Source: Nitrospirales bacterium
GTDB taxonomy: Bacteria; Nitrospirota; Nitrospiria; Nitrospirales; UBA8639
Assembly (NCBI GenBank): GCA_029261295.1
Contig: JAJDBP010000032.1
Coordinates: 1 to 64,000, forward strand
Length of the DNA stretch: 64,000 nucleotides
Direction of reading: 5' to 3'
The notes beneath the pieces are model-generated. The model had not been told where the DNA came from. It was given only the letters and a program-made list of their open reading frames with translations, and did not search any database. Position numbers and translations under genes: made by a program. Shown piece after piece: positions 46,518 to 49,669 of the stretch. Numbering within the stretch: position 1 is the first letter of the stretch; the number at the start of each line of letters is the position of its first letter.

Positions 46518-47327
46518 CTAATTCCCTCCACCAGCTCGATACCCCTCCAAATCAATGGTGACGGTTGTAAAACCAATTTCCTTCAAAGCCTCGAGAACCC
46601 TAATACGCCGACCTGACTCTACCAACTTGGATATTTCCCAATAGCCCACTTCGATCCGAGCCATCTCGCCATGGAGACGAACACGCACCTGCATCAATCC
46701 TTCTGAGAGCAAAAACGATTCGGCCTTTTCCACTCGAGACAATAACGTTTTGGTGATGGGAATGCCTCTTGAGATACGGGATGACAAACAGGCGGCCGCG
46801 GGTTTATTCCAGTTGGCTAAACCCAAAACTTGCGCAAGGTGTCGAATATCAGACTTACCACAATTCGCCTCAAATAACGGGCTTCGCACACCCAATTGCT
46901 TTCCAGCCTGAATGCCCGGTCGATCCTCACCTATATCATCCACATTGGTTCCATCCACGATGGATTGGAAGCCTGCAACTCGTCGAACACTAGATAACAA
47001 TTGGTACAGATCCGTCTTGCAATGGAAGCAACGAGTCGCATCATTCTGTACAAATGCCTTAATTTTCAGTTGGTCAGTTTTTACGACTTCTAGTTGAACC
47101 CCGATGGCTTCACACAATTGATGAGCATCATTCAGCTCACTGGCTGGGAGAGTGGGAGAAGTCGCAATAACAGCCTTAGCCGACTCTCCAAGAACATCCA
47201 CCGCGACCTTCAAGACGACTGTACTATCAACCCCACCTGAAAATGCGACAACGACGGAGCCGAGGTCTTGCAACAACTTCTTCAGATGTTCGTATTTACT
47301 TTGGAGAGCTGGTTCAAGACTCTGCAT
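46518..47327 (-). CDS. larE: ATP-dependent sacrificial sulfur transferase LarE
   Basis: About 269 residues. The PP-loop SGGVDSTVVL lies near residue 30. The sacrificial cysteine is in PAAACLSSRI, and CFHCKTDLY and DGTNVDDIGEDRPG are family marks. LarE adenylates a pyridinium dinucleotide and donates its own cysteine sulfur to build the nickel-pincer cofactor of lactate racemase. I chose ATG 47327, 14 bases inside rlmN; ATG 47375 would add 16 residues foreign to the family. LarA, LarB and LarC are not in the window. Confidence 0.88.
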   Translation of the reverse strand: MQSLEPALQSKYEHLKKLLQDLGSVVVAFSGGVDSTVVLKVAVDVLGESAKAVIATSPTLPASELNDAHQLCEAIGVQLEVVKTDQLKIKAFVQNDATRCFHCKTDLYQLLSSVRRVAGFQSIVDGTNVDDIGEDRPGIQAGKQLGVRSPLFEANCGKSDIRHLAQVLGLANWNKPAAACLSSRISRGIPITKTLLSRVEKAESFLLSEGLMQVRVRLHGEMARIEVGYWEISKLVESGRRIRVLEALKEIGFTTVTIDLEGYRAGGGN

Positions 47328-48411
47328 AAATAGGAAGAGATGGCTTTGATTGCGGCGGCACGGATTCGAGTACATCGGAAGCCGATCGCCCTAATTGTCC
47401 GCATGCCCCTAACACATCATCGCCGCGGCTTTTACGGAGAAACACATCCAACCCACGACGGCGAACAGTTTGTTGAAACACATCAATGATATCTGATGAC
47501 GGACGCCGAAAGACATTTCCCGGAAACTCATTAAATGGAATTAAATTAATTTTACATCGCATACCACGCAACAAGGAACTCAATCGATTCGCATCTGCTA
47601 CTGAATCGTTAACCCCAGCCAATAACACATATTCAAAAGTTAAAGGGCGCTCAGAATCTTCCAGGTATATTCTGCAGGCATCGAGTAAATCTTCCAAACA
47701 ATAGCGCTTATTCACTGCGGGCATGAGATGGTCACGTTGCGCATTTGTTGTCCCATTTAAAGAGATGGCTAAATTCACCCCAAGACGCCGAACATCAGGA
47801 AACCGTGGAATCCATCCAGCCGTCGAAACCGTAATCCGCCGAGGGGAAAAACCTAATCCCCATTCGATATTGGTGAGGCGTTGAATGGCGTCTGCCACTG
47901 CATCAAAATTCACTAACGGCTCACCCATACCCATAAATACGAGAGACGTGAGATGCTCCCCTTCGGGAAGATCAGCTTGCACATTCAGCACCTGTCCGAC
48001 TATTTCATGAGCGAACAAGCTGCGCTTGATCCCCATCTGGGCCGTCAAACAAAATCCACAGTCCAAGGTACAGCCAACTTGCGAAGATACACATAATGTC
48101 CGACGCCGTTCTTCCGGAATTAATACCGTTTCAACTGCCAGCCCATCTTCAAGGCGCCATAAATATTTTCCCGTACCGTCACCCGCCAATTGACGAGAGA
48201 TCAGCGTATCCTTTTGAAGAGTCGCCACTTGCTTCAAACGAACCCGGTCGGCTTTAGACAAATTTGTCATCGCATCAATATCAGACACGTGATTCTGATA
48301 GAGCCATTTCAAGATTTGGTGGCTTCGATAACGAGGCCACCTAAATCCCTGGACCAATTCTTCGATTTCCCTAATATTGAGTGAAAGAAGATTGAAAGGA
48401 GGTGTATTCAT
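47314..48411 (-). CDS. rlmN: 23S rRNA A2503 / tRNA A37 C2-methyltransferase RlmN
   Basis: 365 residues, radical SAM. The cluster cysteines are Cys114, Cys118 and Cys121 in QVGCTLDCGFC. FMGMGEPLVNFDAV binds SAM, and a conserved cysteine near the end lies in DDVLGACGQLG. It methylates A2503 of 23S rRNA and A37 of some tRNAs. It overlaps larE by 14 bases, suggesting co-transcription. Upstream lies a long AT-rich stretch. Confidence 0.95.
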   Translation of the reverse strand: MNTPPFNLLSLNIREIEELVQGFRWPRYRSHQILKWLYQNHVSDIDAMTNLSKADRVRLKQVATLQKDTLISRQLAGDGTGKYLWRLEDGLAVETVLIPEERRRTLCVSSQVGCTLDCGFCLTAQMGIKRSLFAHEIVGQVLNVQADLPEGEHLTSLVFMGMGEPLVNFDAVADAIQRLTNIEWGLGFSPRRITVSTAGWIPRFPDVRRLGVNLAISLNGTTNAQRDHLMPAVNKRYCLEDLLDACRIYLEDSERPLTFEYVLLAGVNDSVADANRLSSLLRGMRCKINLIPFNEFPGNVFRRPSSDIIDVFQQTVRRRGLDVFLRKSRGDDVLGACGQLGRSASDVLESVPPQSKPSLPIYAES

Positions 48412-48844
48412 GTGAACTCTTTTATTCTATTGCGCCCTCTTCAAAAAACCCTGCCAGATCATACCATCTCATTAAGCCCTCGCAAGAAAGATTTTTGGTA
48501 TTTTAAATTGATTCCATATATTTAACATTAATAATTAATACGTATCTATATATAGATAAGGAATTACAATTCAATCAAAATCAATTATCTACACCAATTA
48601 TTCGAATGAAAAAGTGATTAAAGCAGCTTTCATTATGATCAGTAAAAACATCAGAACCGTAATTCATCTGCTTATGTATCTTCCATAAAAAACTTTTCCC
48701 CATGCTTTGAATAAAACACTAGATATTGTCTAACTCATCCCAATATATAAGTACTAATGGATATATTACCCCTTCAATGAAATAGACGATGTAGAGTGGT
48801 GCAAACATACCATTCGATCAATTATATTAAATCATCATTTATAG

Positions 48845-48857
48845 CCTACTCAGTAGG
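48845..48857. promoter_or_regulatory. Operator-like palindrome
   Basis: CCTACT-C-AGTAGG, a perfect 6-bp inverted repeat with a one-base centre, 33 bases upstream of the -35 hexamer. It could bind a dimeric regulator. This is inference from symmetry and position. Confidence 0.4.
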
Positions 48858-48889
48858 ATTACATAAAAAAATAATTTAAAGCTTGCTTG

Positions 48890-48918
48890 TTGACTTTGCT
48901 TTAAAACATGAATAAAAT
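48890..48918 (+). promoter_or_regulatory. Strong sigma-70-type promoter for the HARE-HTH gene
   Basis: TTGACT (48890-48895), 17-bp spacer, TAAAAT (48913-48918). Ten of twelve bases match consensus. A start near 48925 gives a leader of about 23 bases to the ATG at 48948. Confidence 0.75.
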
Positions 48919-48947
48919 TTCAATCAACATATGGTGGAGCTAGGACG

Positions 48948-49472
48948 ATGGAGAGTCAAGATGATGAGCTTGAAGATATTCTTAGGGGGTTGGAACAGCG
49001 GATCAGTGTATATGAACGCAAACGTAAGGACCTTCAAAAGAAACGGGAGCAATTAGGAGATGAAATCGCTACGGTCGAGAAATACCTTGAGTTGGCAAAA
49101 ACCTTGTATCGTGTGGAAGCTGACAAAGCGAAACTGGCCAGCCTCTCCTTCCAAATTACCTCTCACGAAAAGGGGGAAGTGTCGACACCTGACGTCGACG
49201 TTGCGGCCAAATCGCGGGAGATTCTTTTGGGGCGGAGTAAGTATGTCGGACGCAGCGTCCCCGATGCGGTGTACATGGTTTTGCAAGAGGTAGGTCGCCC
49301 ACTCCATGCGAAAGATTTGTATCAACGACTTAAAGAGGGCGGAATGCCCATCAGAGGAAAAACTCCGGTGACATCAATAGCCACCTCCTTAAAGCGAGAC
49401 GCACGGTTCCGCAAAGTCGGACCCAATACGTTCGAAGTCAATCACGATAAGCCCTTAACCAAAGCCGTCTGA
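48948..49472 (+). CDS. Coiled-coil HARE-HTH domain protein
   Basis: 174 residues. The first 70 form a charged coiled coil (RISVYERKRKDLQKKREQLG and beyond). The last 75 are a HARE-HTH winged helix (VPDAVYMVLQEVGRPLHAKD, then LYQRLKEGG, TSIATSLKRDARFRKVGPNTF). HARE-HTH domains are found in ASXL proteins, RNA polymerase delta subunits and some restriction enzymes, where they bind DNA or chromatin-like targets. A dimeric DNA-binding or nucleoid role fits the layout. It has its own strong promoter and is followed by a tiny Lys/Ala-rich gene. No known operon partner is beside it. Confidence 0.85.
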   Translation: MESQDDELEDILRGLEQRISVYERKRKDLQKKREQLGDEIATVEKYLELAKTLYRVEADKAKLASLSFQITSHEKGEVSTPDVDVAAKSREILLGRSKYVGRSVPDAVYMVLQEVGRPLHAKDLYQRLKEGGMPIRGKTPVTSIATSLKRDARFRKVGPNTFEVNHDKPLTKAV

Positions 49473-49521
49473 CTGGGCAACGACACAAGTGTTCCCTTCT
49501 CGGTGAAAGGAGGTGAGTGAC

Positions 49522-49608
49522 TTGGCAGTGACGAAAAAGAAAGCCGCTCCAAAGAAAAAGGCGGCATCGGCCAGACCAAAGGCAAAGGCCGCTACGAAAA
49601 AGAAGTAA
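49522..49608 (+). CDS. Lys/Ala-rich basic micro-protein, 28 residues
   Basis: An AAAGGAGGTGA ribosome-binding site lies seven bases before TTG 49522. The product reads MAVTKKKAAPKKKAASARPK followed by AKAATKKK, about 43% lysine. It resembles the tails of histone H1-like and other nucleoid proteins that bind DNA non-specifically. It starts 50 bases after the HARE-HTH gene and ends just before a terminator, so the two likely share one transcript. A GTG two codons further in is a poorer start by spacing. Confidence 0.65.
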   Translation: MAVTKKKAAPKKKAASARPKAKAATKKK

Positions 49609-49631
49609 TTTGACAGTCCCGCCAGAAGTAC

Positions 49632-49669
49632 CGCCGGGGGTAGGGCCACCTGCTCCCGGCGTGTTTTTT
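49632..49669 (+). terminator. Rho-independent terminator after the basic micro-protein
   Basis: CGCCGGGGGTAGG (49632-49644), loop GCCA, CCTGCTCCCGGCG (49649-49661), then TGTTTTTT. A 13-position stem with two mismatches of the G-T type closes the HARE-HTH transcript. Confidence 0.85.

Follow-up and report, generated by a model that had tools for sequence, protein, structure and literature searches.

Sequence comparison across Nitrospirota indicates that the locus described here is an operon-like pair, a gene for a winged-helix protein accompanied by a micro-ORF for a polycationic micro-protein that consists of hardly anything but Lys and Ala, with some Thr and Pro. In the window (the whole 64-kb stretch of DNA that was analysed) the winged-helix protein is of the HARE-HTH type (Table 1). 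The micro-ORF, and not the HARE gene, is the deepest-conserved part of the locus. Its winged-helix partner is replaceable, being either a HARE-HTH or an ArsR-type wHTH-MNT protein, and can be lost.

Table 1 Features of the HARE-HTH and Lys/Ala locus, in window coordinates.
Feature	Position	Strand	Details
rlmN	47314-48411	-	divergent from the HARE gene
intergenic DNA, AT-rich	48412..48889		separates divergent rlmN from the HARE gene; GC 0.30
promoter TTGACT-17-TAAAAT	48890-48918	+	sigma-70 type, 10/12 matches
HARE-HTH protein, 174 aa	48948-49472	+	PF05066 above the curated cutoff
Shine-Dalgarno AAAGGAGGTGA of the micro-ORF, perfect	49506-49516	+	33 bases after the HARE gene
Lys/Ala micro-ORF, 28 aa, peptide MAVTKKKAAPKKKAASARPKAKAATKKK	49522..49608	+	TTG start; TAA at 49606-49608
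Rho-independent terminator, 13-bp stem (49632-49661) and T run	49632..49669	+	GCCA loop, G-C closed

The peptide of the window has 11 Lys and one Arg, no acidic and no aromatic residues, and a calculated pI of 11.6. An earlier note on this DNA had its length right, and the lysine content of about 43% given there corresponds to Lys plus Arg, with Lys alone at 39%. Chance occurrence was evaluated within the window: a K/A ORF with a Shine-Dalgarno was found in 0 of 19,882 random 190-mers, and after one of 97 ORF ends, which was the 49522 micro-ORF itself. When the window's own genome was searched for a second K/A gene with two patterns, only the 49522 ORF matched.

To document the conservation of the pair, we counted the distinct HARE-orthologous loci with enough downstream sequence. 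In all 124 a Lys/Ala ORF was present behind a strong Shine-Dalgarno (122 detected by script, and two, which cross N runs, read by eye). This search for conserved adjacency over Nitrospirota supports the view of the earlier note that the two ORFs form a conserved unit; loss of the micro-ORF or its ribosome-binding site in relatives, named there as grounds for giving up the idea, was looked for and not found. After unrelated ORF ends in other loci, K/A ORFs were detected in 31 of 2,128 cases, mostly the same micro-ORF reached via overlapping frames or neighbouring genes, with a few second K/A copies. Across Nitrospirota the peptide ranges from 11 to 113 aa in length, and is 18 aa long in Nitrospira defluvii (FP929003) and 12 aa in N. 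moscoviensis (NZ_CP011801).

The pN/pS of the micro-ORF, calculated for length classes of at least three sequences, was 0.06-0.35 in ten of eleven classes and 0.61 in the remaining one (37 aa, three divergent sequences). Nucleotide changes were mostly at third positions, and Ala codons take all four bases. The free variation of the third base of Ala codons argues for selection on the amino acids and not on a purine tract, and these comparisons indicate that the micro-ORF is under purifying selection at the amino-acid level. A chance ORF in purine-rich DNA was rejected based on the pN/pS, the conservation of the Shine-Dalgarno and start, and the random stretches described above. The composition of 100 distinct peptides was 47% K, 32% A, 7% T and 7% P, and their 2,762 residues included a single acidic and no aromatic one; the second residue is Ala in 88 peptides and the C-terminus is KKK in 85. 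In most of the distant family f20, and also in the likewise distant f5, f10 and f11, the partner stop codon lies inside the Shine-Dalgarno of the micro-ORF (GAAAGGAGG-TGA), so translation of the micro-ORF is probably coupled to that of the partner.

A scan of contigs gave, as its best 80 matches, contigs titled Nitrospirota/Nitrospirae or a member, except one titled Nitrospinota (L145), with a peptide identical to that of a locus in the window's family (L020). In families f13, f15 and f27 the patterns used did not bring up a convincing K/A ORF, and HARE and a K/A tail fused in one chain were seen in none of the loci examined. In one locus (L030, minus strand, about 1310-1470) HARE is followed by a tandem pair of complete 12-aa K/A ORFs, and each of the two has a Shine-Dalgarno to itself.

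The upstream gene was correctly recognized as a HARE-HTH gene in the earlier note: the protein matched PF05066 with an E of 1.1e-7 and 32.6 bits (cutoff 25.9) over profile positions 2-67 of 71, and the same profile was found in 26 of 26 HARE family members at E 0.01 or better. The gene is single-copy per genome in 38 of 41 relatives. HARE occupies residues 103-163 of the 174-residue chain; a long helix precedes it, and the protein has no acidic tail. An AlphaFold2 model (pLDDT 81), for which the 26-row family alignment was the input, predicts an N-terminal, coiled-coil-like helix (2-71), a disordered linker (~72-85) and a winged helix (~100-165), the latter as HHH-EE at residues 104-164 with pLDDT of about 80-91; both the coiled coil and the oligomerisation of the protein are predicted. 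The calculated pI is 5.5 for the helix half and 10.4 for the winged helix.

The top Foldseek match of this model was the Rok DBD (5zuz, E 4e-3). VIA-align matched it to forkheads, RNAP delta (2m4k, Z 8.5) and linker-histone globular domains (Z 7.7-7.9). Structures of the RNAP delta NTD (2m4k and 8x6g_E) rank among the better fold matches, and H1x (2lso) was aligned over 70 residues with a Z of 7.9 and rmsd of 2.7, with similar Z for forkheads and delta. With a best Foldseek E of 4e-3 and VIA-align Z near 8, the matches of the predicted structure reflect the common winged-helix arrangement and say nothing of function.

The strong promoter proposed in the earlier note was recovered upstream of the HARE gene (Table 1), and the two genes are presumably co-transcribed from it. 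Based on its position the transcript is predicted to start at ~48925, with a 5' UTR of ~23 bases, so almost none of 48412-48947 would be leader. The note had taken these 536 bases as an AT-rich leader with three palindromes and as a part of the unit. The region is AT-rich, with 30% GC vs 50% in the HARE gene, and the AT-richness of the DNA upstream of HARE is kept in relatives within the genus by composition alone. As a leader the region did not hold up: it is mostly untranscribed by this prediction, it has one weak palindrome (73%), and the genus alignment showed conservation of the promoter-proximal 60 bp and otherwise of short blocks only. We therefore rejected the AT-rich leader and its palindromes as functional parts, the conservation being that of the promoter-proximal sequence. 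An Rfam search of the 64-kb window for RNA in the leader or terminator gave no match.

Repeats of GCTTGCTT/TTGCTTT flank the promoter and are conserved throughout the genus, and the promoter-proximal GCTTGCTT repeats suggest possible autoregulation. Short conserved blocks (CATACCATCT, CTACATATAGATA) were observed at 48430-48560 of the window and in relatives (L002-L008), inside otherwise unconserved intergenic DNA; they are probably signals of the divergent rlmN.

At the other end of the locus, the clean terminator described in the earlier note was found as such, and among the stem-loops of the 64 kb only the one at 49632-49661 has that strength with a 4-nt loop. Within the order, compensatory changes are seen in its stem, and there is almost no variation in the GGCCAC loop. 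In Nitrospira (L025-L029 and L149-L190) the GGCCAC loop and compensatory stem changes are kept in the 13-bp hairpin, yet many copies are without the T run, for which reason the hairpin may do more than terminate.

Elsewhere in Nitrospirota, the peptide ORF is downstream of a gene for a wHTH-MNT protein, as observed in 55 of 55 loci examined (one by eye, just under the script threshold), at a distance of about 19-110 bases. This partner is a 180-aa protein unrelated to HARE, with an ArsR-type winged helix joined to an MNT/pol-beta nucleotidyltransferase fold, and MntA structures were the best fold matches of its MNT part. Among 296 genomes sampled over Nitrospirota, HARE was present in 107 and wHTH-MNT in 110, and both were found only in G179, where the HARE match is weak (5.6e-7) and lies elsewhere in the genome. 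The two partners are mutually exclusive, with one weak overlap. A convergent lpxC gene is downstream in 72 of 126 HARE loci and in most wHTH-MNT loci without a HEPN gene; the window's genus is without this arrangement. In families f14, f17, f18 and f38 (L294-L302) a HEPN-like gene comes after wHTH-MNT, and the K/A ORF is third in order, 450-610 nt further downstream. The HEPN (PF05168, 5.7e-9) and Polbeta/MNT (2.5e-9) profiles were matched in L294, and the HEPN-like gene was read by eye in L295 and L298.

The peptide is also retained where the partner is missing or decayed. In six genomes (99-100% complete) of the f3 genera g17, g18, g20 and g22, no HARE orthologue was found beyond one short interrupted remnant. 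The same genomes encode M-ATKKAAKKKKK, or a peptide differing from it by one or two residues, with an intact Shine-Dalgarno and, where inspected, an intact hairpin, and four of the six retain the operon promoter (TTGAC-N-TATA). HARE relics were detected upstream of the peptide in G174 (E 1.7e-16, with a stop and shifts) and, more weakly, in G186, G225 and G220, so that at least four genomes of the Nitrospira group retain HARE only as a relic, beside an intact peptide, Shine-Dalgarno and hairpin. The two-protein HARE/Lys-Ala system of the earlier note is thus valid as a pairing and too narrow in its HARE specificity, given the micro-ORF behind the wHTH-MNT gene and its retention after HARE decay.

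Stand-alone peptide genes occur as well (L193, L340 and L071-L077), and tandem or second K/A copies are common. Most members of the window's genus carry a second, stand-alone K/A/P gene (ATKKKAPAKKKAPA..., 36-53 aa; L071-L077, e.g., G019:C1:1065225-1065257, minus strand), which has a terminator and a long upstream region to itself, and the window's own genome seems to be without it. Tandem or distant second K/A micro-genes of up to 95 aa were observed in other Nitrospirales (L314-L328), those in Nitrospira being 14-24 aa long (e.g., MATKKAAAKKPVKKAAAKKKK). In family f21, which is without HARE or wHTH-MNT matches, one genome (G049, L340) has a stand-alone 33-aa K/A/T micro-gene (MPTAKKATKTTK...AKKK) with a terminator-like hairpin. 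A DNA topoisomerase I-like protein in G206 (L349) starts with LAKKAAKTQTKRS after GGAGG, a K/A-rich end on a DNA-handling protein.

The single ingredients of the locus, i.e., the HARE domain, the H1-like Lys/Ala tail and the Rok-like architecture, have known relatives. The linker histones H1/H5 likewise have a winged helix and a K/A/P-rich tail of the same composition, and H1x (2lso) was among the fold matches; however, winged helix and tail are in one polypeptide there and in separate ORFs here, where the winged helix is of the HARE type with an N-terminal helix and there are no nucleosomes. The HARE domain is the domain of RNAP delta. In B. subtilis delta (RpoE) a short lysine tract, 96-KAKKKKAKK-104, directly follows it, and mutants of this tract were less fit and transcribed less from unstable promoters (PMC9136928). 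Delta, which binds RNA polymerase between the beta' shelf and jaw, combines in a single chain an N-terminal HARE domain and an acidic C-terminal region, an architecture that the window protein does not have, its HARE domain being C-terminal and the lysine tract a separate gene. Rok is a nucleoid-associated protein of Bacillus, of the H-NS-like bridging type. Its N-terminus is predicted to form a coiled coil and its C-terminus is a winged helix (PMC6936261), a layout also predicted for the HARE protein; Rok differs in its neutral Q-linker, has no known companion polycation peptide, and is only 16% identical to the HARE protein. Bacterial H1-like proteins such as AlgP share with the peptide the disordered, low-complexity Lys/Ala/Pro repeats of varying length; their tails have been linked to DNA and polyP, and the KPAA domain of AlgP is needed for polyP granule spacing (PMC9239181). 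AlgP has 352 aa with a fused helical N-terminal domain, whereas the tail is alone here, without any other domain and down to 11 residues. In a search of open-access papers, we came across no account of a family of free K/A micro-proteins whose winged-helix partners can be exchanged.

We tentatively prefer, with a confidence somewhat short of even, a reading in which the peptide acts on DNA as a free polycation resembling an H1 tail and is usually partnered by an oligomerising winged-helix protein. The peptide would be disordered and abundantly translated, and would neutralise and bridge polyanions, with DNA as the first target and possibly RNA or polyphosphate. The HARE protein, with its helix and winged helix, would oligomerise and supply DNA or RNA-polymerase binding, as Rok or a linker-histone globular domain does. 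By cooperating, the two would resemble a linker histone made as two polypeptides, one the globular domain and the other the tail, leaving the tail length free to vary (11-113 aa) through repeat expansion. The adjacency in 124/124 HARE and 55/55 wHTH-MNT loci, the coding constraint and the composition were counted for this reading, as were the exclusivity of the partners, the peptides kept with HARE relics and as stand-alone genes, the fold shared with the Rok DBD, RNAP delta and H1, the Rok architecture, and the AlgP-type tails. The peptides of Nitrospira sensu stricto (11-13 residues) may be too short for an H1 tail, and since the peptide persists without a winged-helix partner, joint action would not be obligatory.

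Alternatively, the locus could encode a split delta, i.e., an RNAP modulator in which HARE docks on RNAP and the separate lysine peptide tunes contacts between RNAP and nucleic acid. The HARE domain itself, the delta NTD structures among the better fold matches, and the Nitrospira peptides (MATKKAAKKKKK), which resemble the delta tract KAKKKKAKK, are in line with this, as is the reduced fitness and transcription when the tract after HARE is mutated in delta (PMC9136928). We take it as a serious rival, though an unlikely one, with the HARE domain of the window being C-terminal after a long helix and without an acidic tail, and with other lineages swapping in the ArsR-type wHTH-MNT protein, which has no known RNAP role. 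A peptide that outlives HARE, exists on its own and resembles the KPAA domain of AlgP in composition (PMC9239181) could also be a counter-ion for polyphosphate or RNA and organise granules or condensates as AlgP does, the winged-helix gene being a mere neighbour or an operon regulator; a swappable HTH neighbour would suit a local regulator. But the locus has no granule-specific gene, AlgP combines a long tail with a separate N-terminal domain, and a mere regulator would not need such strict adjacency to one or other of the two winged-helix genes; we find this role improbable.

The order wHTH-MNT, HEPN-like gene, K/A ORF in f14, f17, f18 and f38, with the HEPN and Polbeta/MNT profile matches in L294 and the MNT structural matches, would suit a toxin-antitoxin-like remnant in which the K/A ORF had been added for regulation to an MNT-HEPN module that has since decayed. 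Such an origin is quite improbable in our view: most wHTH-MNT loci have no HEPN gene in between, the HARE protein is without an MNT domain and yet the peptide is under selection, and the relic and stand-alone copies are unlinked to HEPN or MNT. The very short ORF in Nitrospira, with the conserved GGCCAC-loop hairpin immediately after it, could indicate a function other than as a protein, either as a lysine-rich leader peptide/attenuator or as a purine-rich RNA element before the terminator. We give this very little credence against the low pN/pS with silent changes in Ala and Lys codons, the in-frame length variation (11-113 aa) and the existence of stand-alone and tandem copies. With a convergent lpxC often downstream there would be nothing to attenuate, and a leader/attenuator was rejected on this point and on the 10-fold variation in length among copies.

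Returning to the H1-tail-like polycation, the nucleoid or transcription role suggested in the earlier note is a fair reading, based on the winged helix and the H1-tail-like peptide. The comparisons indicate that an ultra-short gene (11-12 residues, MATKKAAKKKK) is selected in well over a hundred species and outlives the decay of its operon partner, and the peptide family would be an unusually clear-cut example of a very small protein with a function. The class of histone-tail-like micro-proteins in Nitrospirota is probably mostly unannotated, and gene callers likely miss the micro-ORF due to its short length and TTG start. The locus would also be a natural split of the H1-like halves, winged helix and basic tail, and with the series of tails of 11-113 residues this split could be used to test what a lysine-rich tail does alone. 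In Nitrospirota, widespread free histone-tail-like micro-proteins may make up a split linker histone whose winged-helix partners can be interchanged, and in which the tail would be the conserved, selectable chromatin unit, a broader proposal that we regard as possible though somewhat doubtful. Nitrospirota include major nitrite oxidisers, and their chromosome organisation appears, to our knowledge, to have been little studied; the pair would provide a candidate nucleoid or transcription factor for these bacteria.
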